Source of the DNA: Cylicocyclus nassatus
Lineage: Eukaryota > Nematoda > Chromadorea > Rhabditida > Strongylidae
Assembly (NCBI GenBank): GCA_958299035.1
Contig: CATQJL010000316.1
Span: 15,780,347 to 15,844,346, forward strand
DNA length: 64,000 bases
Reading direction: 5' to 3'
The notes under the pieces were generated by a model, which had not been told where the DNA came from, searched no databases, and saw only the letters and a program-made list of their open reading frames with translations. A program made the translations under genes and the position numbers. Positions 14,077-62,447 of the stretch are shown piece by piece; position 1 is the first letter of the stretch, and each line of letters begins with the position of its first letter.

Positions 14077-14408
14077 TTAGCGAAGGCGTTGTTTAGGGTT
14101 GTTGCACAAGCGATATAAGAGGCTAGTAAGCCCTTTACTCAAACGCTGAAGTCTATGGCAGTAAGCCCCGCTTCCGTTGCCTGCAGTGCAACAGCTGTAA
14201 ACAGCATTTTCGTAATGGCGCTTCCGGCGTTATCAGCGCCTTCGACGTTGCCAGCGCCTATGGCGTAGTTGGCGCTTCCGCCATCACCGACACTGTAAGC
14301 ACTCTCAGCACTTTCGGCAGCATCAAAGGAAGCTGCTATGTGTCCGTATCCTTGTCACTGTCCATTCGTGCCAGATTTCTTTGTGGTGCATATTTGTATT
14401 CAATTTCT
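14077..14408. repeat. block W, left outer arm
   Basis: This is a mirror of 33419-33750 with scattered substitutions, for example GTTTAGGG against the complement of CTCTAAAG. Read on the minus strand it has a long Met-less frame rich in Ala, Gly and Ser. The strand is dotted with GGCGCT/AGCGCC motifs. The coding status is unknown. Confidence 0.75.
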
Positions 14409-14414
14409 GTACAG

Positions 14415-16426
14415 AAAGAGCTAGAAGAATTTCAGATGTTGAGTGGCTAAGCTCTACAAAGAAACCCACCATCACAAAAGTGAAATTTGTTAGGGAGACG
14501 AGAAGTGCGATTAGAAGGCCGAGCAGGTGTGATTATCTATGATTTGCTGAGTGGCATGTTTCATAGCCTGAACAAATATAATTAATAAAATTTATGTGAA
14601 GAAAGAAGTCAAAGATGAACATGCAAATGCAATCAACTTTTGTCTCTATACATTACTAGCTTCTGTAAGACGTTCACCAGCAGCATTCTTCAATCTCCAA
14701 TCGTACAGATCGGGTTTTTCTCTTGCGACAGTATTTCAGTTTCCGGATGCTTACATTTTTATGAAACAAAAAGAAACAAAGCAAGGTACATTTGTGTGAC
14801 TTGAAGCATTTACCGCTACGCGGCTAAAGTTCGGCACACCTCTGTCTCGGATACATGTTCGCCTACGTCACGTAAAGCCTAAAATCCACGGCAAGTTTAT
14901 AGCAACTAGCAAGAGCACTCGCCTGACATCCTGTCCTTTAGCAAATTCATCTATTTTGACAGAAGCCGTGAATACTGCTTAACAAATATAAATTGGAGTG
15001 CTAATCAGGGTCGGGCACAATCGTATGCAGAAGAGCTGGACTTCGTTTCTGGGACGAAAAAACTAAGAGGATATCGCTTCGCGTTATTTGCTTGTCCTCG
15101 CCGGCTCCCAATCGAGTCAGTTTTGTTGACAAATATGACTGAAGGCGCAAAATGGTGAGTCTTGTCAAGAAAAACAGCGAGACAAATACTGAGCCTTTGA
15201 AAACTACAAAATGATGCATTAAATTGGTCATTAAGTGTTGAGAAGACTGAACACAATTGAAAGAAGCTGTTTCAACAGTTCTGATTCCCACGAAATAACA
15301 GGCAAAATGAATACGAGGAGTGAGAGTTTCACTAATAGGATTGACAAAAAAGCTGAGAGCGATGAAGTCCTGAATTTCCTAAAAATATATAGTACTAACC
15401 GGCGGTCCCGGTTTCACTCGGGACTCCACTTTAGCTAAGAAGAAGTTACTTATACTTACCTTTTGAGCTTCTTCTGTGCAAAAAGGGCTTTGGAACGAAT
15501 TGCCCGCATCTTCCCGACATTGAGATAAAAATGAGCTTTACCATTCCATAACATGATCATGGCAAAATGATTGGTTAGAGCATGTCAAACCTCATTTTCT
15601 CAGATGTAAGTAAACAAATCAACAAATCAATAGAAGGGTCCAGTAATTCGCCTCGAAAAGTGGCCCATGTACTGCGCCGGGGTCGAAAACATAAGCATGC
15701 AAAGTTTCAGCTCATTTGGTCCACTCAAGATTTGTATAAAAAACATACTTATTAACACACAAACACACTTTGAGTTATATATATATATATAAATGAATGA
15801 GCTCATTGAAAGCGAGAAGGCTAACCATTTTAAACAGAAGCTTATCTCTGAATCTCCACGCTATATACGAAGCTCCGCAGTTCACAACAAAAACTGGTTT
15901 GGCATTCAGTAGCCACTGCTAGTCAGTAGTTTGGCAGTATCTAAAGGGCCACCATGTACCTTCCCCTCCAGGGACGTCGAATACAATACGCCAAAGAACA
16001 TTATTTAATGAGATCTTACAATCTGAATAAATGCTTTGAAAAAATTTGGCATGAGAGCAGGAAGGAAGACAGTCTGTTTGACAAATTGGCTCTACGAGAT
16101 CATCAATATTGTCCCACGTAACTTCTGTCTATTCCGTGTTATTGTCTTATAGCTTCCACAAAGTCCTAGAAGGATACAGGTAACAAATGAGTCCTACTCC
16201 TGCTGAAATGGATGCCTTACAGTTGTCTCAAGAAGCAAATTTGTGTTTCTTTTCATTGGCAAAACTTGCCCGAGCAGCAGCAGCTATAGCTGCTGCGGTA
16301 TCAGGCTGTTTAATGACTGTTGCAATACTTGCGGCGTACGGCGGCTGAATGAATAGGTAACGAATTCAGCTTGCCGCGTACGTCATCTTCAACCATCAGA
16401 CCTATAATTTTGGCTACTTTCCGACA
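14415..16426. mobile_element. block X, copy 1 (2012 bp), putative insertion unit
   Basis: The body is bounded by GTACAG at 14409-14414 and again at 16427-16432. The 22884-24895 copy has the same length and the same flanking hexamer. It starts AAAGAGCTAGAAG and ends CTACTTTCCGACA; no terminal inverted repeat is evident. It contains an AT microsatellite (about 15776-15792) and a short CAGCAGCAGC-AGCTATAGCTGCTGC palindrome near 16270-16295. It differs from copy 2 at only a handful of sites. Confidence 0.55.
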
Positions 16427-18616
16427 GTACAGGTTTTTAAACGGTAAAAGTTTTGTTTCTTTCATCTCAGTCGATATTTCGCTAAATAGTGAATCATGAT
16501 GCAGAGATGGTGTAAGAAAAGTGTAAGTTATAGTGATGCATACCTTATTCGGTGATGTCTTTGCTCTTGCACTCTCTGAAGGAGTTTTCTTTTGGAGAAA
16601 AAGCAGTCCAAATCTGCCTTGATTCGCGGTTGAATCAAGGCAGATTTGGAATCAAGGTTTTAGGCACTCCAAGACAGTATATAGGCATAAGTCTACTGTC
16701 TAACGTATCTTTCTGGTCCTGCAGCTTAAGTTTGGAGCAAGGAGTGGCAGCAAACGGTAAATGATTGCAAATTGATGCGGCACTGCGAAATGACATGCGA
16801 CAAAAGCTTCGCGCGGTTCATTTTTGAAGTGGCTAAATCGCATTTTCAAGGGAGCTCCGTTTGCTGCAAGACACAAAGGACTACAAAAGCTGATGGGGAA
16901 ACGAGCATTTCCTACTTTGAAACTTATGTAAAAAAACTTATGTAAACCCTTCTTGTGTAGTTATAGCATGAAGATTTACTGCATGGTGTCAAAGCCATAG
17001 ATTTGGCTATTATTCGATCCGTAGAAATTATTAGGAAGCTGATCACAAATATTCTGTTCTTTTTACAAGAAAGCGCGATTCCTGAGGTTACAAATATATG
17101 GTCGACCGGATCGGATGAAAACCTCAAATCCGTCAAAGCTAAGCTAGTATATCATCTACTCAAAGCGCAACAAATGACTGTTTCAGGCACTCCGGGATCA
17201 TTATCGTGATCAGGATGCCAAATAAGCCCAGTGCACGTGTTCTGAGCAAATCTGACTCACTTACTGTAAAGACCTTGTTTATACAGAAAGGGGTTTTTGT
17301 GCAAGAACAGGGTTATAATTGTGGTCACATTGCCTGTTAATCCCCAAAGACCAAATTTCAGAGAAATCCATGACTTTGAAATTTTGAGGCTATTCACAAT
17401 TTGCTTTTACGCATAAGACCAGTGTAAAACACAACATTTTAAATAAGTTCTTCATAAATAAGACTCGGAATCAACAGAAAAAGTCGGTCCCCAACTTTCC
17501 TAGTTCTACACATGGCGTAGCACGATATTTTACCGAGCGCGACTTCGCGGTCCAAAACGTGTTAATTGGCCACCTCGGCAGGGGCGCAGGGGTTATATTT
17601 CTCAAGGATTTTAGCACTCCTTAAAGATCGATAGATATGGGAAACACAATCGCCAGTAATGGCAACTGGCGATTGTCATTCGTAACGATTGGCAGCCGCC
17701 AGTCAGGGATCGCCAGTTTTGACGACCACACACTGGATACACGTCGATTGGACAAGTTAAGACATCAGCAGTCGATAGCTATCTAAAGTGCAGTCGCCAT
17801 AGCTGGCGGCCACCAGCATTAGCGACTGGCGATCGCCAGTTTTCGACGACTACGCGTTTGTTACGCAACGATATGACGTGTGGCAACTTGTTCGCGATCA
17901 ATTGCTAGTAGCAGCGACGAGCGATCGCCAATATCGGCGACGAAATTGGCCGGTTTACCACTGATGATTTGATGCATACTCCTCGAGGAGTATAGCGCCT
18001 GCCTTCGACTGCCCATCCTTCTCTTGTCAGTTTCCTGAAAACATTTTTTTGTTTTCCCGCCTTCAAGATTACAGCAGTTATGTCGTATCCACGTCTACTT
18101 CAGTGGAAGATCATGAATAAAGGCAACTCCATGGCAAAGACGGACAACTATACTTGCAAAGCACGCGCGAATCCAGCAATCGAGCATATCATCGTTGGAG
18201 CGCAACGCCCTAGGGATAACCGCTTTTGACTGGACAAGCAAACCAACCTATTTTCAGCGGTGGTTGTTCTACCTTTAAGACATTGTTTTTTAATACGATC
18301 AAGAAGATTATTAAAAATGAAAAGGAATTAAGGAAGAGTTTGCTTTCCTCGTTATCCTCATAGCTGACTTACTATGGCGCTAATTGCCTACGAAATGATC
18401 ACGGCTGTTGCGACAAATAATAGAGAAGCAAGCAATTTGAAAACAGTCGAATTCATCAAATTTTTGTGGTGTGAAAGATCCCTAAGTGAGAGTGGCTCTC
18501 CGAAACTCTCACACTTTCCGGCCTTCCTAATTTGCGGAAAAATTTTCTTAGTTGAGCCTGGTGATAACGCACAGTGTGCATACAATACCGCTCGCATTTT
18601 TTGAAAAATAGACCCG

Positions 18617-18728
18617 AATGTATGGACATGTATGGACATGTACGGACATGTCCGTACATGTATGGACATGTCGCTACATGTATGGACATGTAGCGACATG
18701 TCCATACATGTCAATACATGTATGGACA
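18617..18728. repeat. ACATGTCC/GGACATGT palindromic satellite in Y
   Basis: A run of ATGTATGGACATGT units with CGG, CGC and AGC variants; every unit carries the self-complementary ACATGT. Copies lie at about 20574-20685, 27092-27203 and 29048-29159. A solo relative lies at 35741-35825. The tract stays open in several frames on both strands, which explains the long spurious MHVxTC-type translations. Confidence 0.9.
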
Positions 18729-19123
18729 TCACCGTCGCGTGGCCATATCTCGCTTCAGAGTGGACGAATTCTGAATCCAAAGCCACCATTCGATTCAGCT
18801 CGGCGTGGAGAATCTTCTGATTTCTTGGAAGTGGGGGTACAATGTCTTCAATATTCCGTTTCCAGTTTTTTCAATTTGTTCTGCGGAGGTCCTTTCGCGA
18901 ACCTACCCAACATAGAAGACTTTACTAGGTACTATTCGATAATACTGTTCTTGTAGATTACTGTGCGCTAAAAATAGGCTCAGACTTCTTTCCAAAGGAG
19001 ATAGAAGCGTTGGTGAATTTTGGAAAAATCACGCGTTTTTAAATTCTACTCGCCATAACTTCCTTCGGAATGAGTATATTTTAATTCCAAAAACAGCGCC
19101 TTGCTCAGCTCATCAGGCTTTTG

Positions 19124-19315
19124 CCAGAGTGCCGAAGCCATGCCAGCGCTACGCCAGCGCCGAGCCAGCGTTTCGATCGATACACGTGCATTTCGTTGGG
19201 GCGGGGCTAGCTGACCTTGTTCTCAGCAGGTAGATGTCCCCAATGAAATACGCGTGTATCTATCGAAACGCTGGCTCGGCGCTGGCGTAGCGCTGGCATG
19301 GCTTCGGCACTCTGG
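19124..19315. mobile_element. 192-bp GC-rich foldback inside Y1
   Basis: The ends are CCAGAGTGCCGAAGCCATGC and its complement, and the arms are rich in GCCAGCGC. It is present in Y1 and, inverted, in Y4 at 28461-28652. The homologous spot in Y2 and Y3 lacks it, where CTCATCAAGGCGAATC runs on directly. Related GC-rich dyads occur at 39745-39825 and 45665-45790, so this is a family. Confidence 0.8.
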
Positions 19316-19432
19316 TGGGAGCCTCAAGGCGAATCGTCTCATATACAGAATGCCCTTGATATTTCGATTTCAGTATTCTTGAATCTCTCTGAGGACGTCT
19401 TTTCGCGAAGGTGTAAAGCAGCGAGCATTGTC

Positions 19433-20046
19433 CCGAGTACATTCCAGCAAGGGTCTTTCGATAGCACTTTTTTTTGTAGATTATGATGTGCTAAATAGTA
19501 GCCGCAGGTTTATTTTCAAAGGATATAGTACGGCTGATGAATTGTGGAAAAATCTTGTCGTCCCAAATTTTACTCGCCATATCCGCAGGATACGAAGCTA
19601 TCTTGCTAAGCAGATGTGAGTTTCGAAATCAGCAGGTCGCATAACCTCTACGAGCAAGTTTTCCGATATGTTCGGGTTATTCCATTTTTTCTCGTTTTAC
19701 GCTCCGGAAAGAAAAAAAACTTTGCTTATAGAGGTTTTCGAACACGCCCTTTACGAAAACCGCGGTCTTTAAGGAGTACAGGTCTTTTTGGAGAGAAACG
19801 GTGAGGTGATTGTAACTGCATCACGAAAGTGCGTAAATTTGACCGCACTTCTCACATATCTGTCAGAAACCTTGCCTGCTTGCTTTTCTCAATCAAAGTT
19901 GCTAGGAATTGTGCTATCGAATGGTGTATTACTCAGGCTCCAGTCTGTGAAATTCGCCGACTTACGAGCCTACGAAAACACGTCCTCATGAATTTTTCCC
20001 AAAATGCAAAGATCGCATATTTCGTCGAAATTTCTCCGTGAGCGTC
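19433..20046 (+). repeat. loop L between Y1 and Y2 (orientation 1)
   Basis: This 614-bp stretch has no mirror within the first palindrome but is repeated inverted at 27731-28344. It includes the end of the second coding-like unit in Y and the sequence ATTTTACTCGCCATATCCG, a diverged echo of ATTCTACTCGCCATAACTTCC in the adjacent unit. Confidence 0.85.
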
Positions 20047-22881
20047 GACAATGCTCGCTGCTTTATACCTTCGCGAAAAGACGTCCTCAGAGAGACTCAA
20101 GAATACTGAAATCGAAATATCAAGGGCATTCTGTATATGAGAAGATTCGCCTTGATGAGCTGAGCAAGGCGCTGTCGGATTCAAAATATACTTATTCCGA
20201 AGGAAGTTATGGCGAGTAGAATTCAAAAACGATTTTTCCAAAATTCACCAACGCTTCTATCTCCTTTGGAAAGAAGTCTGAGCCTATTTTTAGCGCATAG
20301 TAATCTACAAGAACAGTATTATCGAATACTTTTCTTGTAGATTCATAGATTGTAGATGTAGAGTAAAGTCTTCTATGTTGGGTAGGCGTTGCTTCACATA
20401 TTCGCGAAAGGACCTCCGCAGAACAAATTGGAAAAACTGGAAACGGAATATTGAAGACATTGTACCCCCACTTCCAAGAAATCAGAAGATTCTCCACGCC
20501 GAGCTGAATCGAATGGTGGCTTTGGATTCAGAATTCGTCCACTCTGAAGCGAGATATGGCCACGCGACGGTGATGTCCATACATGTATTGACATGTATGG
20601 ACATGTCGCTACATGTCCATACATGTAGCGACATGTCCATACATGTACGGACATGTCCGTACATGTCCATACATGTCCATACATTCGGGTCTATTTTTCA
20701 AAAAATGCGAGCGGTATTGTTTGCACACTGTGCGTTATCACCAGGCTCAACTAAGAAAATTTTTCTGCAAATTAGGAAGGCCGGAAAGTGTGAGAGTTTC
20801 GGAGAGCCACTCTCACTTAGGGATCTTTCACACCACAAAAATTTGATGAATTCGACTGTTTTCAAATTGCTTGCTTCTCTATTATTTGTCGCAACAGCCG
20901 TGATCATTTCGTAGGCAATTAGCGCCATAGTAAGTCAGCTATGAGGATAACGAGGAAAGCAAACTCTTCCTTAATTCCTTTTCATTTTTAATAATCTTCT
21001 TGATCGTATTAAAAAACAATGTCTTAAAGGTAGAACAACCACCGCTGAAAATAGGTTGGTTTGCTTGTCCAGTCAAAGGCGGTTATCCCTAGGGCGTTGC
21101 GCTCCAACGATGATATGCTCGATTGCTGGATTCGCGCGTGCTTTGCAAGTATAGTTGTCCGTCTTTGCCATGGAGTTGCCTTTATTCATGATCTTCCACT
21201 GAAGTAGACGTGGATACGACATAACTGCTGTAACCTTGAAGGCGGGAAAACAAAAAAATGTTTTCAGGAAACTGACAAGAGAAGGATGGGCAGTCGAAGG
21301 CAGGCGCTATACTCCTCGAGGAGTATGCATCAAATCATCAGTGGTAAACCGGCCAATTTCGTCGCCGATATTGGCGATCGCTCGTCGCTGCTACTAGCAA
21401 TTGATCGCGAACAAGTTGCCACACGTCATATCGTTGCGTAACAAACGCGTAGTCGTCGAAAACTGGCGATCGCCAGTCGCTAATGCTGGTGGCCGCCAGC
21501 TATGGCGACTGCACTTTAGATAGCTATCGACTGCTGATGTCTTAACTTGTCCAATCGACGTGTATCCAGTGTGTGGTCGTCAAAACTGGCGATCCCTGAC
21601 TGGCGGCTGCCAATCGTTACGAATGACAATCGCCAGTTGCCATTACTGGCGATTGTGTTTCCCATATCCATCGATCTTTAAGGAGTGCTAAAATCCTTGA
21701 GAAATATAACCCCTGCGCCCCTGCCGAGGTGGCCAATTAACACGTTTTGGACCGCGAAGTCGCGCTCGGTAAAATATCGTGCTACGCCATGTGTAGAACT
21801 AGGAAAGTTGGGGACCGACTTTTTCTGTTGATTTCGAGTCTTATTTATGAAGAACTTATTTAAAATGTTGTGTTTTACACTGGTCTTATGCGTAAAAGCA
21901 AATTGTGAATAGCCTCAAAATTTCAAAGTCATGGATTTCTCTGAAATTTGGTCTTTGGGGATTAACAGGCAATGTGACCACAATTATAACCCTGTTCTTG
22001 CACAAAAACCCCTTTCTGTATAAACAAGGTCTTTACAGTAAGTGAGTCAGATTTGCTCAGAACACGTGCACTGGGCTTATTTGGCATCCTGATCACGATA
22101 ATGATCCCGGAGTGCCTGAAACAGTCATTTGTTGCGCTTTGAGTAGATGATATACTAGCTTAGCTTTGACGGATTTGAGGTTTTCATCCGATCCGGTCGA
22201 CCATATATTTGTAACCTCAGGAATCGCGCTTTCTTGTAAAAAGAACAGAATATTTGTGATCAGCTTCCTAATAATTTCTACGGATCGAATAATAGCCAAA
22301 TCTATGGCTTTGACACCATGCAGTAAATCTTCATGCTATAACTACACAAGAAAGGTTTACATAAGTTTTTTTACATAAGTTTCAAAGTAGGAAATGCTCG
22401 TTTCCCCATCAGCTTTTGTAGTCCTTTGTGTCTTGCAGCAAACGGAGCTCCCTTGAAAATGCGATTTAGCCACTTCAAAAATGAACCGCGCGAAGCTTTT
22501 GTCGCATGTCATTTCGCAGTGCCGCATCAATTTGCAATCATTTACCGTTTGCTGCCACTCCTTGCTCCAAACTTAAGCTGCAGGACCAGAAAGATACGTT
22601 AGACAGTAGACTTATGCCTATATACTGTCTTGGAGTGCCTAAAACCTTGATTCCAAATCTGCCTTGATTCAACCGCGAATCAAGGCAGATTTGGACTGCT
22701 TTTTCTCCAAAAGAAAACTCCTTCAGAGAGTGCAAGAGCAAAGACATCACCGAATAAGGTATGCATCACTATAACTTACACTTTTCTTACACCATCTCTG
22801 CATCATGATTCACTATTTATTTATTTAGAAATATCGACTGAGATGAAAGAAACAAAACTTTTACCGTTTAAAAACCTGTAC
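20047..22881 (-). repeat. block Y, copy 2 (inverted)
   Basis: This is the reverse complement of 16427-19432. It lacks the 192-bp foldback and has extra sequence near 20320-20395 (TTGTAGATTCATAGATTG and GCGTTGCTTCACATATTCG), where Y1 carries a short replacement. It ends in AAAAACCTGTAC immediately before X2. Confidence 0.85.
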
Positions 22882-22883
22882 AG

Positions 22884-24895
22884 AAAGAGCTAGAAGAATT
22901 TCAGATGTTGAGTGGCTAAGCTCTACAAAGAAACCCACCATCACAAAAGTGAAATTTGTTAGGGAGACGAGAAGTGCGATTAGAAGGCCGAGCAGGTGTG
23001 ATTATCTATGATTTGCTGAGTGGCATGTTTCATAGCCTGAACAAATATAATTAATAAAATTTATGTGAAGAAAGAAGTCAAAGATGAACATGCAAATGCA
23101 ATCAACTTTTGTCTCTATACATTACTAGCTTCTGTAAGACGTTCACCAGCAGCATTCTTCAATCTCCAATCGTACAGATCGGGTTTTTCTCTTGCGACAG
23201 TATTTCAGTTTCCGGATGCTTACATTTTTATGAAACAAAAAGAAACAAAGCAAGGTACATTTGTGTGACTTGAAGCATTTACCGCTACGCGGCTAAAGTT
23301 CGGCACACCTCTGTCTCGGATACATGTTCGCCTACGTCACGTAAAGCCTAAAATCCACGGCAAGTTTATAGCAACTAGCAAGAGCACTCGCCTGACATCC
23401 TGTCCTTTAGCAAATTCATCTATTTTGACAGAAGCCGTGAATACTGCTTAACAAATATAAATTGGAGTGCTAATCAGGGTCGGGCACAATCGTATGCAGA
23501 AGAGCTGGACTTCGTTTCTGGGACGAAAAAACTAAGAGGATATCGCTTCGCGTTATTTGCTTGTCCTCGCCGGCTCCCAATCGAGTCAGTTTTGTTGACA
23601 AATATGACTGAAGGCGCAAAATGGTGAGTCTTGTCAAGAAAAACAGCGAGACAAATACTGAGCCTTTGAAAACTACAAAATGATGCATTAAATTGGTCAT
23701 TAAGTGTTGAGAAGACTGAACACAATTGAAAGAAGCTGTTTCAACAGTTCTGATTCCCACGAAATAACAGGCAAAATGAATACGAGGAGTGAGAGTTTCA
23801 CTAATAGGATTGACAAAAAAGCTGAGAGCGATGAAGTCCTGAATTTTCCTAAAATATATAGTACTAACCGGCGGTCCCGGTTTCACTCGGGACTCCACTT
23901 TAGCTAAGAAGAAGTTACTTATACTTACCTTTTGAGCTTCTTCTGTGCAAAAAGGGCTTTGGAACGAATTGCCCGCATCTTCCCGACATTGAGATAAAAA
24001 TGAGCTTTGCCATTCCATAACATGATCATGGCAAAATGATTGGTTAGAGCATGTCAAACCTCATTTTCTCAGATGTAAGTAAACAAATCAACAAATCAAT
24101 AGAAGGGTCCAGTAATTCGCCTCGAAAAGTGGCCCATGTACTGCGCCGGGGTCGAAAACATAAGCATGCAAAGTTTCAGCTCATTTGGTCCACTCAAGAT
24201 TTGTATAAAAAACATACTTATTAACACACAAACACACTTTGAGTTATATATATATATATAAATGAATGAGCTCATTGAAAGCGAGAAGGCTAACCATTTT
24301 AAACAGAAGCTTATCTCTGAATCTCCACGCTATATACGAAGCTCCGCAGTTCACAACAAAAACTGGTTTGGCATTCAGTAGCCACTGCTAGTCAGTAGTT
24401 TGGCAGTATCTAAAGGGCCACCATGTACCTTCCCCTCCAGGGACGTCGAATACAATACGCCAAAGAACATTATTTAATGAGATCTTACAATCTGAATAAA
24501 TGCTTTGAAAAAATTTGGCATGAGAGCAGGAAGGAAGACAGTCTGTTTGACAAATTGGCTCTACGAGATCATCAATATTGTCCCACGTAACTTCTGTCTA
24601 TTCCGTGTTATTGTCTTATAGCTTCCACAAAGTCCTAGAAGGATACAGGTAACAAATGAGTCCTACTCCTGCTGAAATGGATGCCTTACAGTTGTCTCAA
24701 GAAGCAAATTTGTGTTTCTTTTCATTGGCAAAACTTGCCCGAGCAGCAGCAGCTATAGCTGCTGCGGTATCAGGCTGTTTAATGACTGTTGCAATACTTG
24801 CGGCGTACGGCGGCTGAATGAATAGGTAACGAATTCAGCTTGCCGCGTACGTCATCTTCAACCATCAGACCTATAATTTTGGCTACTTTCCGACA
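22884..24895. mobile_element. block X, copy 2, between inverted Y copies
   Basis: Same length and direction as copy 1. It is flanked by GTACAG at 22878-22883 and 24896-24901. Removing X2 and one hexamer would leave AAAAACCTGTACAGGTTTTT, a perfect palindrome joining Y2 to Y3. Differences from copy 1 include ATTTTCCTAAAATAT against ATTTCCTAAAAATAT, and one A/G change near 24009. Confidence 0.55.
23470..24057 (-). CDS. hypothetical frame in block X, 195 codons
   Basis: The frame is open from an ATG at 24057 to a stop at 23470. It contains a credible 90-bp intron (23849-23938, GTAAGT...TATATTTTAG) whose removal keeps phase, so a spliced product could contain KALFAQKKLKRKIQDF. Hydrophobic stretches such as SVFVSLFFLTRL suggest membrane segments. 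No family is recognised. Copy 1 is broken by compensating one-base indels, and the inverted copy near 30480-30900 is interrupted by an insertion. It could be a real gene carried by X or a chance frame. Confidence 0.25.
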   Translation of the reverse strand: MTCSNQSFCHDHVMEWQSSFLSQCREDAGNSFQSPFCTEEAQKVSISNFFLAKVESRVKPGPPVSTIYFRKIQDFIALSFFVNPISETLTPRIHFACYFVGIRTVETASFNCVQSSQHLMTNLMHHFVVFKGSVFVSLFFLTRLTILRLQSYLSTKLTRLGAGEDKQITRSDILLVFSSQKRSPALLHTIVPDPD

Positions 24896-27730
24896 GTACA
24901 GGTTTTTAAACGGTAAAAGTTTTGTTTCTTTCATCTCAGTCGATATTTCTAAATAAATAAATAGTGAATCATGATGCAGAGATGGTGTAAGAAAAGTGTA
25001 AGTTATAGTGATGCATACCTTATTCGGTGATGTCTTTGCTCTTGCACTCTCTGAAGGAGTTTTCTTTTGGAGAAAAAGCAGTCCAAATCTGCCTTGATTC
25101 GCGGTTGAATCAAGGCAGATTTGGAATCAAGGTTTTAGGCACTCCAAGACAGTATATAGGCATAAGTCTACTGTCTAACGTATCTTTCTGGTCCTGCAGC
25201 TTAAGTTTGGAGCAAGGAGTGGCAGCAAACGGTAAATGATTGCAAATTGATGCGGCACTGCGAAATGACATGCGACAAAAGCTTCGCGCGGTTCATTTTT
25301 GAAGTGGCTAAATCGCATTTTCAAGGGAGCTCCGTTTGCTGCAAGACACAAAGGACTACAAAAGCTGATGGGGAAACGAGCATTTCCTACTTTGAAACTT
25401 ATGTAAAAAAACTTATGTAAACCTTTCTTGTGTAGTTATAGCATGAAGATTTACTGCATGGTGTCAAAGCCATAGATTTGGCTATTATTCGATCCGTAGA
25501 AATTATTAGGAAGCTGATCACAAATATTCTGTTCTTTTTACAAGAAAGCGCGATTCCTGAGGTTACAAATATATGGTCGACCGGATCGGATGAAAACCTC
25601 AAATCCGTCAAAGCTAAGCTAGTATATCATCTACTCAAAGCGCAACAAATGACTGTTTCAGGCACTCCGGGATCATTATCGTGATCAGGATGCCAAATAA
25701 GCCCAGTGCACGTGTTCTGAGCAAATCTGACTCACTTACTGTAAAGACCTTGTTTATACAGAAAGGGGTTTTTGTGCAAGAACAGGGTTATAATTGTGGT
25801 CACATTGCCTGTTAATCCCCAAAGACCAAATTTCAGAGAAATCCATGACTTTGAAATTTTGAGGCTATTCACAATTTGCTTTTACGCATAAGACCAGTGT
25901 AAAACACAACATTTTAAATAAGTTCTTCATAAATAAGACTCGAAATCAACAGAAAAAGTCGGTCCCCAACTTTCCTAGTTCTACACATGGCGTAGCACGA
26001 TATTTTACCGAGCGCGACTTCGCGGTCCAAAACGTGTTAATTGGCCACCTCGGCAGGGGCGCAGGGGTTATATTTCTCAAGGATTTTAGCACTCCTTAAA
26101 GATCGATGGATATGGGAAACACAATCGCCAGTAATGGCAACTGGCGATTGTCATTCGTAACGATTGGCAGCCGCCAGTCAGGGATCGCCAGTTTTGACGA
26201 CCACACACTGGATACACGTCGATTGGACAAGTTAAGACATCAGCAGTCGATAGCTATCTAAAGTGCAGTCGCCATAGCTGGCGGCCACCAGCATTAGCGA
26301 CTGGCGATCGCCAGTTTTCGACGACTACGCGTTTGTTACGCAACGATATGACGTGTGGCAACTTGTTCGCGATCAATTGCTAGTAGCAGCGACGAGCGAT
26401 CGCCAATATCGGCGACGAAATTGGCCGGTTTACCACTGATGATTTGATGCATACTCCTCGAGGAGTATAGCGCCTGCCTTCGACTGCCCATCCTTCTCTT
26501 GTCAGTTTCCTGAAAACATTTTTTTGTTTTCCCGCCTTCAAGGTTACAGCAGTTATGTCGTATCCACGTCTACTTCAGTGGAAGATCATGAATAAAGGCA
26601 ACTCCATGGCAAAGACGGACAACTATACTTGCAAAGCACGCGCGAATCCAGCAATCGAGCATATCATCGTTGGAGCGCAACGCCCTAGGGATAACCGCCT
26701 TTGACTGGACAAGCAAACCAACCTATTTTCAGCGGTGGTTGTTCTACCTTTAAGACATTGTTTTTTAATACGATCAAGAAGATTATTAAAAATGAAAAGG
26801 AATTAAGGAAGAGTTTGCTTTCCTCGTTATCCTCATAGCTGACTTACTATGGCGCTAATTGCCTACGAAATGATCACGGCTGTTGCGACAAATAATAGAG
26901 AAGCAAGCAATTTGAAAACAGTCGAATTCATCAAATTTTTGTGGTGTGAAAGATCCCTAAGTGAGAGTGGCTCTCCGAAACTCTCACACTTTCCGGCCTT
27001 CCTAATTTGCAGAAAAATTTTCTTAGTTGAGCCTGGTGATAACGCACAGTGTGCAAACAATACCGCTCGCATTTTTTGAAAAATAGACCCGAATGTATGG
27101 ACATGTATGGACATGTACGGACATGTCCGTACATGTATGGACATGTCGCTACATGTATGGACATGTAGCGACATGTCCATACATGTCAATACATGTATGG
27201 ACATCACCGTCGCGTGGCCATATCTCGCTTCAGAGTGGACGAATTCTGAATCCAAAGCCACCATTCGATTCAGCTCGGCGTGGAGAATCTTCTGATTTCT
27301 TGGAAGTGGGGGTACAATGTCTTCAATATTCCGTTTCCAGTTTTTCCAATTTGTTCTGCGGAGGTCCTTTCGCGAATATGTGAAGCAACGCCTACCCAAC
27401 ATAGAAGACTTTACTCTACATCTACAATCTATGAATCTACAAGAAAAGTATTCGATAATACTGTTCTTGTAGATTACTATGCGCTAAAAATAGGCTCAGA
27501 CTTCTTTCCAAAGGAGATAGAAGCGTTGGTGAATTTTGGAAAAATCGTTTTTGAATTCTACTCGCCATAACTTCCTTCGGAATAAGTATATTTTGAATCC
27601 GACAGCGCCTTGCTCAGCTCATCAAGGCGAATCTTCTCATATACAGAATGCCCTTGATATTTCGATTTCAGTATTCTTGAGTCTCTCTGAGGACGTCTTT
27701 TCGCGAAGGTATAAAGCAGCGAGCATTGTC
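24896..27730 (+). repeat. block Y, copy 3
   Basis: Nearly identical to the reverse complement of Y2, sharing its variants, including AAATAAATAAATAG near 24950 where Y1 is shorter. It includes the ACATGT satellite at about 27092-27203 and a clean example of coding-like unit A (frame 27280-27570), discussed in findings. Confidence 0.85.
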
Positions 27731-28344
27731 GACGCTCACGGAGAAATTTCGACGAAATATGCGATCTTTGCATTTTGGGAAAAATTCATGAGGACGTGTT
27801 TTCGTAGGCTCGTAAGTCGGCGAATTTCACAGACTGGAGCCTGAGTAATACACCATTCGATAGCACAATTCCTAGCAACTTTGATTGAGAAAAGCAAGCA
27901 GGCAAGGTTTCTGACAGATATGTGAGAAGTGCGGTCAAATTTACGCACTTTCGTGATGCAGTTACAATCACCTCACCGTTTCTCTCCAAAAAGACCTGTA
28001 CTCCTTAAAGACCGCGGTTTTCGTAAAGGGCGTGTTCGAAAACCTCTATAAGCAAAGTTTTTTTTCTTTCCGGAGCGTAAAACGAGAAAAAATGGAATAA
28101 CCCGAACATATCGGAAAACTTGCTCGTAGAGGTTATGCGACCTGCTGATTTCGAAACTCACATCTGCTTAGCAAGATAGCTTCGTATCCTGCGGATATGG
28201 CGAGTAAAATTTGGGACGACAAGATTTTTCCACAATTCATCAGCCGTACTATATCCTTTGAAAATAAACCTGCGGCTACTATTTAGCACATCATAATCTA
28301 CAAAAAAAGTGCTATCGAAAGACCCTTGCTGGAATGTACTCGGG
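27731..28344 (-). repeat. loop L in orientation 2
   Basis: Reverse complement of 19433-20046. It is flanked by Y3 and Y4 in the same way that the first copy is flanked by Y1 and Y2, but with the partner arms swapped. Confidence 0.85.
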
Positions 28345-29829
28345 ACAATGCTCGCTGCTTTACACCTTCGCGAAAAGACGTCCTCAGAGAGATTCAAGAA
28401 TACTGAAATCGAAATATCAAGGGCATTCTGTATATGAGACGATTCGCCTTGAGGCTCCCACCAGAGTGCCGAAGCCATGCCAGCGCTACGCCAGCGCCGA
28501 GCCAGCGTTTCGATAGATACACGCGTATTTCATTGGGGACATCTACCTGCTGAGAACAAGGTCAGCTAGCCCCGCCCCAACGAAATGCACGTGTATCGAT
28601 CGAAACGCTGGCTCGGCGCTGGCGTAGCGCTGGCATGGCTTCGGCACTCTGGCAAAAGCCTGATGAGCTGAGCAAGGCGCTGTTTTTGGAATTAAAATAT
28701 ACTCATTCCGAAGGAAGTTATGGCGAGTAGAATTTAAAAACGCGTGATTTTTCCAAAATTCACCAACGCTTCTATCTCCTTTGGAAAGAAGTCTGAGCCT
28801 ATTTTTAGCGCACAGTAATCTACAAGAACAGTATTATCGAATAGTACCTAGTAAAGTCTTCTATGTTGGGTAGGTTCGCGAAAGGACCTCCGCAGAACAA
28901 ATTGAAAAAACTGGAAACGGAATATTGAAGACATTGTACCCCCACTTCCAAGAAATCAGAAGATTCTCCACGCCGAGCTGAATCGAATGGTGGCTTTGGA
29001 TTCAGAATTCGTCCACTCTGAAGCGAGATATGGCCACGCGACGGTGATGTCCATACATGTATTGACATGTATGGACATGTCGCTACATGTCCATACATGT
29101 AGCGACATGTCCATACATGTACGGACATGTCCGTACATGTCCATACATGTCCATACATTCGGGTCTATTTTTCAAAAAATGCGAGCGGTATTGTATGCAC
29201 ACTGTGCGTTATCACCAGGCTCAACTAAGAAAATTTTTCCGCAAATTAGGAAGGCCGGAAAGTGTGAGAGTTTCGGAGAGCCACTCTCACTTAGGGATCT
29301 TTCACACCACAAAAATTTGATGAATTCGACTGTTTTCAAATTGCTTGCTTCTCTATTATTTGTCGCAACAGCCGTGATCATTTCGTAGGCAATTAGCGCC
29401 ATAGTAAGTCAGCTATGAGGATAACGAGGAAAGCAAACTCTTCCTTAATTCCTTTTCATTTTTAATAATCTTCTTGATCGTATTAAAAAACAATGTCTTA
29501 AAGGTAGAACAACCACCGCTGAAAATAGGTTGGTTTGCTTGTCCAGTCAAAAGCGGTTATCCCTAGGGCGTTGCGCTCCAACGATGATATGCTCGATTGC
29601 TGGATTCGCGCGTGCTTTGCAAGTATAGTTGTCCGTCTTTGCCATGGAGTTGCCTTTATTCATGATCTTCCACTGAAGTAGACGTGGATACGACATAACT
29701 GCTGTAATCTTGAAGGCGGGAAAACAAAAAAATGTTTTCAGGAAACTGACAAGAGAAGGATGGGCAGTCGAAGGCAGGCGCTATACTCCTCGAGGAGTAT
29801 GCATCAAATCATCAGTGGTAAACCGGCCA
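28345..29829 (-). repeat. block Y, copy 4 (inverted, cut by gap)
   Basis: Reverse complement of Y1 down to about 17947, with Y1-type variants and the 192-bp foldback at 28461-28652. A run of seven A (28301 region) replaces the eight T of Y1, which leaves a 106-codon minus-strand frame (28158-28478) intact. It breaks off at CCGGCCA before the Ns. Confidence 0.85.
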
Positions 29830-30329
29830 NNNNNNNNNNNNNNNNNNNNNNNNNNNNNNNNNNNNNNNNNNNNNNNNNNNNNNNNNNNNNNNNNNNNNNN
29901 NNNNNNNNNNNNNNNNNNNNNNNNNNNNNNNNNNNNNNNNNNNNNNNNNNNNNNNNNNNNNNNNNNNNNNNNNNNNNNNNNNNNNNNNNNNNNNNNNNNN
30001 NNNNNNNNNNNNNNNNNNNNNNNNNNNNNNNNNNNNNNNNNNNNNNNNNNNNNNNNNNNNNNNNNNNNNNNNNNNNNNNNNNNNNNNNNNNNNNNNNNNN
30101 NNNNNNNNNNNNNNNNNNNNNNNNNNNNNNNNNNNNNNNNNNNNNNNNNNNNNNNNNNNNNNNNNNNNNNNNNNNNNNNNNNNNNNNNNNNNNNNNNNNN
30201 NNNNNNNNNNNNNNNNNNNNNNNNNNNNNNNNNNNNNNNNNNNNNNNNNNNNNNNNNNNNNNNNNNNNNNNNNNNNNNNNNNNNNNNNNNNNNNNNNNNN
30301 NNNNNNNNNNNNNNNNNNNNNNNNNNNNN
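29830..30329. other. assembly gap, exactly 500 N
   Basis: A round 500 N indicates a scaffold join of unknown size. If the arms are symmetric, the missing part should hold the rest of Y4 and the inner end of the inverted X (counterpart of 15634-16426). Confidence 0.98.
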
Positions 30330-30355
30330 AAGCAGTGGTATCAACGCAGAGTACT
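30330..30355 (+). other. SMART/ISPCR amplification adapter left in the assembly
   Basis: The 26 bases directly after the gap begin AAGCAGTGGTATCAACGCAG and end AGTACT. This is the SMART-type PCR adapter used in cDNA and low-input genomic amplification. It abuts repeat X without a break. It is not biological. Confidence 0.97.
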
Positions 30356-30914
30356 CTATTGATTTGTTGATTTGTTTATTACATCTGAGAAAATGAGGTT
30401 TGACATGCTCTAACCAGTCATTTTGCCATGATCATGTAGTTATGGAATGGTAAAGCTCATTTTTATCTCAGTGTCGGGAAGATGCGGGCAATTCGTTCCA
30501 AAGCCCTTTTTGCACAGAAGAAGCTCAAAAGCGTAAGTGTAAGTAACTTCTTCTTAGCTAAACTGGAGTCCCGAGTGAAACCGGAACCGCCGGCTAGTAC
30601 TATATATTTTAGGAAAATTCAGGACTTCATCGCTCTCAGCTTTTTTGTCAATCCTATTAGTGACTCTCACTCCTCGTATTCATTTTGCCTGTTATTTAGT
30701 GGGAATCAGAACTGTTGAAACAGCTTCTTTCAATTGTGTTCAGTCTTCTCAACACTTAATGACCAATTTAATGCATCATTTTGTAGTTTTCAAAGGCTCA
30801 GTATTTGTCTCGCTGTTTTTCATGACAAGACTCACCATTTTGCGCCTTCAGTCATATTTGTCAACAAAACTGACTCGATTGGGAGCCGGCGAGGACAAGC
30901 AAATGAACGCGAAG

Positions 30915-31157
30915 TTGGCAGACAGTAATTATTTTGAATCGTTATTTGATAAATTGGCAATGTCGTTTGAATATTCCCTCGAATATTACCACCAGGGCCC
31001 GGCATGAGTCCGGCTATGTTTTTTACGAAGTCCTTCCTGACTTTCGCCAAAATTTACGAAGTCCCCTTTGACCCCAGATCATATCGAAAAATTCTTATAG
31101 ACAAAACGTCAACTAAAAAAAACGTCGCAATTTTTTGCGTCTTTTCGGCCACTAAAA
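30915..31157. mobile_element. 243-bp insertion, dispersed repeat copy 2
   Basis: The uninterrupted X reads GCGAAGCGATATCC; here 243 bp separate GCGAAG from CGATATCC. The right two thirds repeat the 9106-9285 family (AGGGCCCGGCATGAG, TTTACGAAGTCCCC, CTTTTCGGCC). The first roughly 70 bp are unrelated to that copy. Confidence 0.7.
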
Positions 31158-31457
31158 CGATATCCTCTTAGTTTTTTCGTCCCAGAAACGAAGTCCAGCT
31201 CGTCTGCATACGATTGTGCCCGACCCTGATTAGCACTCCAGTTTTATATTTGTTAAGCAGTATTCACGGCTTCTGTCAAAATAGATGAATTTGCTAAAGG
31301 ACAGGATGTCAGGCGAGTGCTCTTGTTAGTTGCTATAAACTTGCCGTGGATTTTAGGCTTTACGTGACGTAGGCGAACATGTATCCGAGACAGAGGTGTG
31401 CCGAACTTTAGCCGCGCAGCGGTAAATGCTTTAAGTCACACAAATGTACCTTGCTTT

Positions 31458-32155
31458 TTTCTCGTTAATTGCTTGAGCGTAATCCAAGATTGGTACAGAA
31501 CTTTATCGCACAGAATAACAGACTAACGTTTCGGCGAACTCGCCTTCTTCAGAGTCTGAAAAAGTCGAAGACACATAAGTAAACTATCCGATCAAACACC
31601 TCATCGACTACAGAAAAGAGCCCAACCCTTTAAGAAAAAACAACAGCCTCAACCAAAACTAAGATTAAGCTAGTGCTCACCTTAGCAGATGAAAATTTGG
31701 TGGGTGCAGACCACTATGTCAAAAAGCTGTACTGCTTTACTTTTATAGTTAACTAGTGACCCGGTTCTGACCTGACCCCATTATTCAAAAGCCACAGAGG
31801 CTCTGATATGGCGACACAACTATAAAAGTAAAGCAGTACAGCTTTTTGACATAGTGGTCTGCACCCACCAAATTTTCATCTGCTAAGGTGAGCACTAGCT
31901 TGATCTTAGTTTTGGTTGAGGCTGTTGTTTTTTCTTAAAGGGTTGGGCTCTTTTCTGTAGTCGATGAGGTGTTTGATCGGATAGTTTACTTATGTGTCTT
32001 CGACTTTTTCAGACTCTGAAGAAGGCGAGTTCGCCGAAACGTTAGTCTGTTATTCTGTGCGATAAAGTTCTGTACCAATCTTGGATTACGCTCAAGCAAT
32101 TAACGAGAAGATTGCAACTATGCCAAGATTCATGGATAGTCGAACATGGATGCTT
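31458..32155. mobile_element. 698-bp foldback insertion with 14-bp target duplication
   Basis: Arms 31461-31750 and 31818-32107 are 290 bp each with one substitution noticed, around a 67-nt loop. A 48-nt unpaired tail follows the right arm. The insertion is bracketed by ATGTACCTTGCTTT at 31444-31457 and 32156-32169, which X1 has only once. Arm identity suggests a young insertion. Confidence 0.85.
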
Positions 32156-32412
32156 ATGTACCTTGCTTTGTTTCTTTTTGTTTCATAAAAATGTAATCCG
32201 GAAACTGAAATACTGTCGCAAGAAAAAAAACACGATCTGTACGATTGGAGATTGAAGAATGCTGCTGGTGAACGTCTTACAGAAGCTAGTGGTGTATAGA
32301 GACAAAAGTTGATTGCATTTGCATGTTCATCTTTGACTTCTTTCTTCACATGAATTTTATTGATTATATTTGTTCAGGCTATAGAAACATGCACTCAGCA
32401 AATTATAGATAA

Positions 32413-33293
32413 CTAGCTGGCTTACCCGGCTCCGCCGTATGTTCCGAATAGAAAATTCCATTTCTGAACCGATCGGGACCAAACTTGGCACACATACACT
32501 TCGGGCCCCGGCGGGTGTCATAGGCTACTTTTCGTATCGATCGATATCGATTTTATCGATTTTTTGCAAAATTTGAGCTAAGGGGCTGGGATTTGGCACA
32601 GGGGGGTAATCGAGCATGCTGATTACGAATACAATATTAGTTTTCGAAACCGTGCATTACCTTTATCGATTTTATCGATTTTTTGCAAAATTTGAGCTAG
32701 GGGGCTGGAATTTGCCAGGGGGTGTAATCGAGCATGCTGATCACCCCCACGGGAGTGATCAGCATGCTCGATTACCCCCCTGTGCCAAATCCCAGCCCCG
32801 TAGCTCAAACTTTGCAAAAAAATCGATAAAATCGATAAAAGTAATGCACGATTTTAAAAACTAATATTGTATTCGGAATCCCCATGCTCACTTACCCCCC
32901 TGTGCCAACTCCCAGCCCCGTAGCTCAAATTTTGCAAAAAATCGATAAAATCGATATCGATCGATACGAAAAGTAGCCTATGACACCCGCCGGGGCCCGA
33001 AGTGTATGTGTGCCAAGTTTGGTCCCGATCGGTTCAGAAATGGAATTTTCTATTCGGAACATACGTACAGACAGACATACATAACCTTTGATTCAACTGG
33101 CTTGGCACCATTAGGGCGGGGTTTTGTGGTCTAATTGAGGCCGCTCGCGCCCGCGACGCACCTGCGTCTCTCTCGCGAGAGTGCTCTCTGATCATTACGT
33201 AGCCTTAATTAGGTCACGAAGCTCACCTTTGCCGATGCCAATCCAGTTGAATCAAATGGTACATACAAACAGACATTCAGCTTTATATATAAG
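32413..33293. mobile_element. palindromic dispersed repeat with ATCGAT core, copy 1
   Basis: It runs from CTAGCTGGCTTACCCGGC to CAGCTTTATATATAAG and splits the X sequence ATAGATAATCACACC. The inverted halves share GGGACCAAACTTGGCACACA, TCGATCGATATCGATTTTAT and GGGGCTGGGATTTGGCAC. The tail carries ACAGACAGACATACAT. A shorter copy with the same ends is at 62150-62447. The superfamily was not identified. Confidence 0.8.
33084..33259. mobile_element. TTTGATTCAAC MITE nested in the palindromic repeat
   Basis: The ends are ACCTTTGATTCAACTGGC and its near complement. It is flanked by TA at 33082-33083 and 33260-33261. The homologous unoccupied site is readable at about 62413-62430 (ACATACATACAGACAG), which confirms the TA duplication. 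The interior has GCGACGCA..CTGCGTC and the paired CTAATTGAGG/CTTAATTAG blocks. Confidence 0.9.
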
Positions 33294-33418
33294 ATCACAC
33301 CTGCTCGGCCTTCTAATCGCACTTCTCGTCTCTCTAACAAATTTCACTGTTGTGATGGTGGGTTTCTTCGTAGAGCTTAGCCACTCAACGTCTAAAATTC
33401 TTTTAGCTCTTTCTGTAC

Positions 33419-33750
33419 AGAAATTGAATACAAATATACACTACAAAGAAATCTGGCACGAATGGACAGTGACAAGGATACGGACACATAGCAGCTTCCT
33501 TTGATGCTGCCGAAAGTGCTGAGAGTGCTTACAGTGTCGGTGATGGCGGAAGCGCCAACTACGCCATAGGCGCTGGCAACGTCGAAGGCGCTGATAACGC
33601 CGGAAGCGCCATTACGAAAGTGCTGTTTACAGCTGTTGCACTGCAGGCAACGGAAGCGGGGCTTACTGCCATAGACTTCAGCGTCTGGGTAAAGGGCTTA
33701 CTAACCTCTTATATCGCTTGTGCAACAACTCTAAAGAACGCCTTCGCTTA
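33419..33750. repeat. block W, inverted outer copy
   Basis: Mirror of 14077-14408. It ends at CCTTCGCTTA, where the ATCGATTTT minisatellite starts abruptly, so the right outer boundary has been replaced or invaded by the satellite. Confidence 0.75.
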
Positions 33751-34440
33751 CCGATTTTATCGATTTTTGCCAATTTTCGGGATTTCGCAACCTCCAGAAT
33801 ATCGATTCTGACGATTTTTGAGGTTTTGGAGTTTGCGAGATATCTAATTTATCGATTTTTGCCAATTTTCGGGTTTTTGCAACCTCCAGAATATCGATTT
33901 TATCGATTTTTGAGGTTTTGGAGTTTGCGAAATATCGAATTTATCAATTTTTGCCAATTCTCGGGATTTCGCGCCCCTCAGGATATCGATCTTTGCCAAT
34001 TTTCGGGTTTTTGCAACCTCCAGAATATCGATTTTATCGATTTTTGCCATTTTCGGGTTTTTGCAACCTCCAGAATATCGATTTTATCGATTTTTGAGGT
34101 TTTGGAGTTTGCGAAATATCGAATTTATCAATTTTTGCCAATTCTCGGGATTTCGCGCCCCTCAGGATATCGATCTTTGCCAATTTTCGGGTTTTTGCAA
34201 CCTCCACAATACCGATTTTATCGATTTTTGCCAATTTTCGGGATTTCGCAACCTCCAGAATATCGATTTTATCGATTTTTGAGGTTTTGGAGTTTGCGAA
34301 ATATCTAATTTATCGATTTTTGCCAATTTTCGGGATTTCGCGCCCTCCAGAATACCGATTTTATCGATTTTTGCCAATTTTCGGGTTTTTGCAACCTCAA
34401 GAATATCGATTCTAACTCTATAATATCGATTTTATCGCTT
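33751..34440. repeat. 51-bp-unit minisatellite with higher order
   Basis: The unit is built on ATCGATTTTATCGATTTTTG, CCAATTTTCGGG and GCAACCTCCAGAAT. Variant units with GAGGTTTTGGAGTTTGCGAA alternate, giving an approximately 181-bp higher-order period (compare 33983 with 34164). Because 51 is a multiple of 3, the array is open in frame for 196 codons as a periodic FYRFLPIFG peptide; I regard this as non-coding. The ATCGATTTTATCGATTTT core is shared with the repeat at 32413. Confidence 0.9.
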
Positions 34441-52771: not shown

Positions 52772-53588
52772 AATTTATCGGGGTTAGAAAGTAGGCCAAC
52801 TCCTAAAACACATCGAAAACGTATCGCTTATCGACATTATTACAACGCAATAAATGCTTAAACGCGTATAGAACTGTCAAGAAAAGAGCTAAAATGAAAG
52901 CAAAAAGGCCAAATTTGAGAGGAATTATGGATCAAGATGTACAAGAACAGAAACGAAGGGAATCACACCTGCACTGGACATCTGAACCGATAACAATGAT
53001 ATCTCGGCACTGATAAGAGGCGCTAACATTGAACAAGTTCGGATTTGTACATGTAAAATCATGTATAAACATGTAGAACAAGCTTTGTTACTTGTAAAAC
53101 AGGAATTAGCCACAGAGCATTAGATCTACAGTTGCAGATAACCACAGTGAGCAGGATATCGCTGCAGGACCCCGCACAAGTCCAATTATGTCCTTTGAAC
53201 GGTCATCTGAGCAGTCTTTAGCTTTTCTATTTAGAAAATAGAAGATTTCTTGCACAAAAGTAAAAATTTTTTCACACGGAACTGAATATTCTTACGCATA
53301 GATGTGAGGAAGTAAGGTGCAAGGATGCATGCAGAAAATTTTGCAGAAATCATGAAAAAAAACGAATTCTATCCATTGTTCGGATGTCGCGTTATAAGAA
53401 TGTGTCTGTTAGCTTGTATAAAGTGTAATTACAGAGCCTCCAAATTCAGAAACGGAGTTTGACTGTACGAACCCTAGCAGATTTACATTTCTAAGGCTTT
53501 TATAGATTTGTAGATTTGCAGCCAAATAAATTTTGATGCAATTCGAGAAAACAGAAATAATTTTTTTTGCTATACACTGAATAAAGTA

Positions 53589-62149: not shown

Positions 62150-62447
62150 CTAGATGGCAAACCCGGCTCCGCCCGGGACCAAACTTTGCACACATACACT
62201 TCGGGGCAGGGAGCGTGTCATAGGCTACTTTTCGTTATCGATCAATATCGATTTTATCGATTTTTTGCAAAATTTGAGCTAGGGGGCTGGGATTTTGCAC
62301 AGGGGTGGACTATGACACGCTCCCTGCCCCGAAGTATATGTGTGCCAAGTTTGGTCCAAATCGGTTCAGAAATAAAAATTTCTATTCAGCACATACGTAC
62401 AGACAGACAGACATACATACAGACAGACATTCAGCTTTATATATAAG
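62150..62447. mobile_element. palindromic dispersed repeat with ATCGAT core, copy 2
   Basis: It has the same termini as 32413-33293 (CTAGATGGCAAACCCGGC ... CAGCTTTATATATAAG), with the centre reduced to about 40 bp. The tail is ACGTACAGACAGACAGACAT. It preserves the empty target of the MITE nested in copy 1. Confidence 0.85.

Follow-up and report, generated by a model that had tools for sequence, protein, structure and literature searches.

A transposon-centred palindrome with a doubtful mirror-image second palindrome in the nematode Cylicocyclus nassatus

The palindromes of sex chromosomes and amplicons, in which gene conversion proceeds from arm to arm, are built of near-identical inverted arms around a short spacer. 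Fold-back inverted duplications, as treated for human (PMC3907307) and yeast (PMC10622511), carry inverted copies around a single-copy spacer of kilobase (kb) scale, with short inverted microhomology at the join and nearby inverted repeats acting as a hinge. The foldback-type transposon Tm1 of root-knot nematodes (PMC3169594) combines long inverted ends, internal tandem repeats and dispersed copies, and in the foldback artefact reads described in PMC12870357 a molecule is joined to an inverted copy of itself; in one read, ~2 kb separates the segments. Here we analyze a double palindrome that shares these features, located in a stretch of 64,000 nucleotides of Cylicocyclus nassatus (the window; assembly GCA_958299035.1, contig CATQJL010000316.1, positions 15,780,347 to 15,844,346; coordinates below are those of the window), which sits on a 93-Mb contig of an assembly of 514,686,895 bases in 369 contigs. 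The locus fits best among inverted duplications of the fold-back type; a long-inverted-repeat transposon lies at its centre, and the standing of its second palindrome is doubtful.

The locus also departs from each of these systems. It is much smaller than the palindromes of sex chromosomes and amplicons, its divergence is non-uniform, and no gene was found in the arm frames scanned. Unlike the fold-backs characterized in PMC3907307 and PMC10622511, it is interstitial, of kb scale and possibly made in vitro, with no terminal deletion or dicentric shown. Copies of Tm1 mostly have target duplications of 9 base pairs (bp) and some encode a putative transposase (PMC3169594), whereas the element described here has TA outside its CAATACCGCTC ends. 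The artefact reads of PMC12870357 come mainly from nanopore libraries and are rare in the three PacBio sets covered there. The explanation that we prefer, at about an even chance of being right, is that an older and real palindrome centred on the transposon is accompanied by a second palindrome that is most likely a false duplication and not a second locus.

Self-BLAST and alignments gave the order X1, Y1, L, Y2', X2, Y3, L', Y4', gap, X'' along the window, in which primes mark inverted copies. The outer left arm X1 (14079-16427, plus strand) is followed by Y1, whose portion outside the transposon spans 16427-18581 (plus) and which ends at 19432; by the loop L (19433-20046, plus, 614 bp), present in one copy per palindrome and corresponding to the inner portion of the left terminal repeat of the transposon; and by Y2' (20047-22881, minus), the right arm of palindrome 1. 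The spacer of the mirror, X2 (22876-24896, plus, 2,021 bp), repeats positions 14407-16427 of X1 with 99.8% identity (differences at 4 of 2021 bases), while the partner of 14079-14406 was found only past the gap. Beyond X2 lie Y3 (24896-27730, plus), identical to Y2, the reversed loop L' (27731-28343, minus), which at 613 bp is one T shorter than L, and Y4' (28344-29829, minus), identical to Y1 over its length up to the contig end where it stops.

The original prediction described this arrangement as two palindromes with opposite loops mirrored around X2, with Y1 matching Y4 and Y2 matching Y3, and both statements were confirmed at the positions given above: the two pairs show 0 mismatches in 1486 and 2835 aligned bases, respectively, as compared to 24 mismatches, plus indels, in 2788 aligned bases between Y1 and Y2. 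Indeed, 17947-22881 recurs in full and in reverse complement at 24896-29829, with no substitution in 4934 bases and a single homopolymer indel (T8/T7). The mirror is not a product of chance, since the longest inverted match in one mononucleotide shuffle of 14077-29829 reached only 18 bases. These copies, like the join between them, are observed directly.

The join between Y2' and X2 carries 6 bp of short inverted microhomology, CTGTAC (22876-22881), and its counterpart on the X side, 14404-14417, is a 14-bp perfect palindrome, TTTCTGTACAGAAA. Within the mirror X2 stands alone, as in described fold-backs, although X occurs at the locus in two more copies, X1 and X''. By comparison, when judged against a single further copy of the element, the join at the centre of palindrome 1 (20046/20047) shows no microhomology and two extra bases. 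Reverse-complementing the block Y1-L-Y2'-X2' yields X2-Y3-L'-Y4', and therefore one fold-back join generates both the mirror and the reversed loop automatically. The two loop orientations, as read from the sequence, thus do not call for recombination between the arms and are not independent evidence for it.

Comparison of X1 with X2 (4/2021) gave a divergence similar to that of Y1 and Y2 outside the element (9/2154; p=0.27) and different from that of the duplicated block (0/4934; p=0.007). It thus fits the outer Y arms better than the duplicated block, which is what a natural adjacency of X2 to Y2 would predict. Three of the four differences lie within 4 bases (15378, 15380, 15381), where X2 agrees with X'', and the fourth is at 15540, where X1 agrees with X''; the test is modest, because the clustered three may be one event, which would leave perhaps only two independent differences.

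Y4' is cut off by a 500-N scaffold gap (29830-30329), the stretch being composed of two contigs, and the first contig ends 6,948 bases past the fold-back join. The next contig starts with 25 bases of residual library polymerase chain reaction (PCR) adapter (30330-30354, plus strand). Exact copies of this adapter occur 2,422 times in the assembly (1,257 forward and 1,165 reverse), as compared to none for a control with reversed letters, so that the source of the data was in all likelihood an amplified library from which adapters had been incompletely removed. Gap and adapter are again plain observations; the original prediction was silent on both, as it was on the dispersed repeat family at the core and on the step in arm divergence described below.

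We suggest that X2-Y3-L'-Y4', as the reverse complement of the first palindrome, was attached through the single CTGTAC join, and that this second copy would have been made by the PCR-amplified library or by an assembly walk, ending within read length of the join. A mean read length of ~10 kb is given for ultra-low-input high-fidelity (HiFi) data in PMC11809032, longer than the distance from join to contig end. The lack of substitutions in the mirror, the position of the contig end and the adapter residue alongside make a false copy more likely. The suspicion that the second palindrome might have been made by the assembler was well founded, with gap and adapter adjoining and no substitutions over 4.93 kb, and it stands as the more likely reading only.

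Several points weigh against a false copy. Low-input PCR libraries have at most 0.81% chimeric alignments in the data of PMC11809032, and in PMC12870357 foldback reads are virtually absent from the single HiFi genomic set and palindromes are noted to amplify poorly. The 6-bp microhomology and kb-scale spacer match in vivo fold-back products (PMC3907307), and a false copy would require the right arm to exist in two versions, X2' and X'', that differ by about 2.9%. Alternatively, the second palindrome could be real and have arisen in vivo very recently, as a fold-back inverted duplication carried by one chromosome or more and perhaps homogenised by gene conversion; a break or stalled fork would have used the 6-bp microhomology and left the 2-kb spacer. 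We consider this unlikely, but a serious competitor. The junction resembles those of human duplications, in which the normal-copy spacer is mostly a few kb and inverted microhomology amounts to 2-8 bp (PMC3907307); the 14-bp palindrome is located at the X side of the break; and HiFi foldback reads are rare in the few PacBio sets studied in PMC12870357. On the other hand, an in vivo event sits poorly with 0/4934 substitutions in the copy against 4/2021 in X (p 0.007) and with a copy that halts at a contig end 6.9 kb onward. Moreover, it should return to the left flank, while the scaffold enters X'' and a different right flank, and a further, unseen join would thus be needed.

The pair had also been proposed to be a tandem duplication with one loop flipped by recombination between arms, a step that is unneeded here and that we retain as a rival only. 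In this scenario the unit X-Y-L-Y' would have been duplicated in tandem, with CTGTAC as the join, and one inner palindrome flipped, either in vivo or through haplotypes assembled in tandem. The order of the segments reads naturally as two units followed by a right arm, and the ~2.3 kb of Y' and X that are not seen could lie in the gap. However, X2 is X1-like up to the boundary with Y, while variants of Y2 appear in Y3 already 54 bases into Y (16481), which would confine the crossover to those 54 bases unless X and X'' are near-identical in the unseen 15635-16427; in addition, two events are required where one is enough. We regard this scenario as distinctly unlikely.

The right outer arm, X'' (30355-33748, minus strand), is an inverted copy of 14079-15634 that aligns to X1 in four pieces with 14/455, 14/256, 6/307 and 11/555 mismatches, which corresponds to 45/1573 (2.9%) with pieces overlapping by a few bases. 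It carries three insertions for which X1 has the empty sites, at 30915-31154, 31463-32155 and 32413-33293 (240, 693 and 881 bp), and it adjoins a different flank, a tandem array with a unit of ~92/184 bp. The mismatches and the three insertions indicate that X'' is not an in vitro copy, and these alignments make it probable that a real palindrome predates the mirror. The second and third insertions overlap or contain near-palindromic elements (31451-32117 and 32436-33065), and the one at 31463 is bordered by a direct repeat of at least about 14 bases. Parts of the insertion at 32413-33293 match 62174-62305. The tandem array (33752-34411; 92-bp or 184-bp unit) begins within a few bases of the end of the right palindrome arm.

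At the core of the older palindrome lies a dispersed transposon with long inverted repeats, present as a truncated copy (18582-20720, plus strand), as established by genome searches, comparison with another copy (L047) and the divergence map. L047 is 4.1 kb long, with terminal inverted repeats of 1325 bp that are 99.5% alike and ends that read TA-CAATACCGCTC. In the window copy the left terminal repeat extends to 20046 and is interrupted near 19113-19323 by a 211-bp insertion; of the right terminal repeat, only the outer ~0.67 kb follows. Sequences 18580-19115 and 19324-20044 match at least dozens of places on large contigs, mostly at 83-94% (among the best 40 of 5746 candidates), and the terminal motif, with at most 1 mismatch, occurs 529+525 times in the genome, while its reversed control is absent (0). 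With long inverted ends and dispersed copies in different flanks, the element has the features of a long-terminal-inverted-repeat, or foldback-type, transposon. TA precedes CAATACC at both ends of L047 and of L014 (CACTACC at one L014 end). This TA may be a target-site duplication of the Tc1/mariner kind or may belong to the element itself; at the right end of the window copy, AA stands in its place.

We also considered that the whole locus could be a transposon with 455-bp terminal repeats (14079-14533/33294-33748), and rejected this, the searched arm parts being single-locus, among the best-listed candidates, save for a ~150-bp repeat; the match is merely the outermost common part of the palindrome. 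The outer-arm searches took in windows 22000-24000 and 17000-18580, and left out 14079-14406 and the equivalent of 24001-24896. For the equivalent of 14407-15531, no other locus was found among the best 40 of 182 candidates besides the ~150-bp dispersed repeat, which lies at about 23854-24000 within X2. For the 16427-18581 part, no other genomic locus was found, either with queries from 22000-22881 (best 40 of 182 candidates) or from 17000 onward (best 40 of 5746).

In order to map divergence between the arms, arm 1 (14407-19432) was compared with arm 2 (22876-27730). Mismatches number 4/2021 in X and 9/2154 in Y outside the element, with a 6-bp indel; within the element they number 0/289 over the first 289 bases and 15/344, with five indels, over the remainder. 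There is thus a sharp and directly visible step inside the element, from 13/4464 (0.29%) to 15/344 (4.4%; Fisher p 8e-11). This step, together with the 2.9% divergence to X'', departs from the uniform near-identity of ampliconic palindromes. Such a step would arise if the ends of the element had already diverged when the outside was copied. On the simplest reading of the alignment, beyond ~18870 one arm would have been copied from the other after that divergence, and the element would be the place where copying of the arm began.

The mechanism that we propose would start from a long-inverted-repeat DNA transposon at the centre of the older palindrome, with X1-Y1 as left arm and a right arm that partly corresponds to X''. 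With the element acting as a hinge, a strand inside one terminal repeat could pair with the other and, by such fold-back priming, copy the left flank in inverted orientation. The step is predicted alike by in vivo gene conversion, in vivo fold-back synthesis and PCR self-priming. Palindrome 1 between L and X2 could also have arisen in vitro, the true locus being X1-Y1-element plus a diverged right arm X'', with PCR strands that ended in one terminal repeat priming on the other and copying the left flank, from the other haplotype. Arm differences outside the element (0.29%) are far below those between X1 and X'' (2.9%) or between element ends (4.4%), as would be the case for an outer right arm that is an allelic copy of the left one, and copies or relatives of the element coincide with adapter sites elsewhere (see below). 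Nevertheless, the 9/2154 differences and 6-bp indel between Y1 and Y2 outside the element require at least two templates, and in vivo gene conversion yields the same pattern. An in vitro origin of palindrome 1 appears to us highly improbable.

The preferred reading, in which only the second palindrome is false, was further examined at adapter sites elsewhere, using the first 30 loci listed, all on one contig (C1), which correspond to 25 distinct 3-kb sites, some within a few kb of each other. A 500-N gap was present at most 1.5 kb away at 12/25 sites, and none was found within 1.5 kb at the remaining 13. At least 300 bp of the element family or a relative was detected at 7/25 sites, one of them (L043) only ~70% alike to the element, as compared to 0/25 control tiles from four C1 stretches and from the window outside 14079-34414 (p 0.0096); this comparison is tempered by the non-independence of nearby sites, the small number of controls and the exclusion of the palindrome itself from the window controls. 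Inverted repeats of at least 300 bp at 97% or more straddle 3/25 adapter sites and 0/25 control tiles, which is not significant (p 0.23).

Eight adapter sites were read to about ±5 kb, and four of the eight lie between inverted repeats of ~1 kb or more, versus none of eight controls; this is a biased sample and not a rate, three of the sites (L050, L053 and L054) having been chosen after their repeats were seen, while unprimed picks gave 1/5 (L055). The weight given to the competing explanations derives mainly from the sequence of the window itself and is unaffected by this comparison. The repeats measure 3.48 kb at 96.9% in L050, 2.35 kb at 99.2% in L053, 1.65 kb at 99.0% in L054, and 1.25 kb at 99.0% and 0.98 kb at 90.7% in L055; relatives of the element are present in L053 and L054. 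L052 has just a 404-bp inverted pair (89%) across its gap, and in L048, L049 and L051 no inverted pair of at least 300 bp at 85% was found within about ±5 kb. Among control stretches, inverted pairs of 334-499 bp were seen in three of four from C1 and in none of four from the window. Gap regions count against the preferred reading: seven of them, read to about ±5 kb, windows too short for a mirror this large, contained no inverted pair of at least 300 bp and 97% with both arms in one contig, and one in-contig pair at 89.5% (L052).

Two of these sites show further arrangements. In L054 (C1:2490000-2499999), an adapter lies inside a gapless contig between inverted arms of an element relative. 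L050 (C1:1400100-1410099) is another large palindrome, with 3.4-kb arms that are 97% alike and are separated by a gap flanked on either side by adapters; its arm is single-locus except for a 0.9-kb dispersed insertion and short matches in its first 158 bases (best 40 of 4873 candidates). With arms 3% apart it is unlikely to be a PCR copy, and real palindromes of this kind may be places at which an amplified library breaks. Coverage dropouts in long-range PCR are named as a cause of gaps in nematode assemblies in PMC10682056, which cites a C. nassatus study among users of ultra-low-input protocols on single arthropods and nematodes.

A broader proposal is that long-inverted-repeat transposons of this genome are recurrent fold-back hinges that copy unique flanks outward and seed single-locus palindromes, whose arms would later be rewritten from the hinge outward; two in vivo rounds would have taken place here, and some assembly gaps would mark others. 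We put this forward tentatively, as a rather unlikely extension. If a hinge does operate in vivo, one element family would provide numerous natural sites at which to test fold-back duplication in an animal genome. In this PCR-amplified, low-input-type assembly, adapter remnants and hairpin-forming transposons tend to occur together, and palindromes in such an assembly should thus not be taken at face value; in this respect the case is instructive, and it is mostly ordinary in kind.

The locus had been called gene-free, which is roughly right, in that none of six open frames lying wholly or partly within the palindrome gave a Pfam match at E 0.01 in single scans. Across the window we kept 406 open frames of at least 50 amino acids, excluding low-complexity frames, frames centred in 20047-31000 and frames in the array 33749-34420, and the Pfam scan took in 300 of the 406, omitting the 106 shortest. 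The sole match seen above the Pfam cut-off among the 300 frames was a bZIP exon outside the palindrome, and protein-coding content was rejected within this scope. A known structured RNA was likewise rejected, no Rfam family reaching its gathering score in the window. Weak matches to the nematode chemoreceptor families Srg and Srv (E 0.0014 and 0.0061) were listed, as were matches to Pyr_excise and PRIMA1, all of them not traced to frames and with cut-offs not shown. The bZIP exon (PF00170, E 2.8e-8) lies at 40253-40450 on the minus strand, and upstream of it, at 52394-52774 on the same strand, is an open frame that resembles a first coding exon by eye; the two possibly belong to one gene with long introns.

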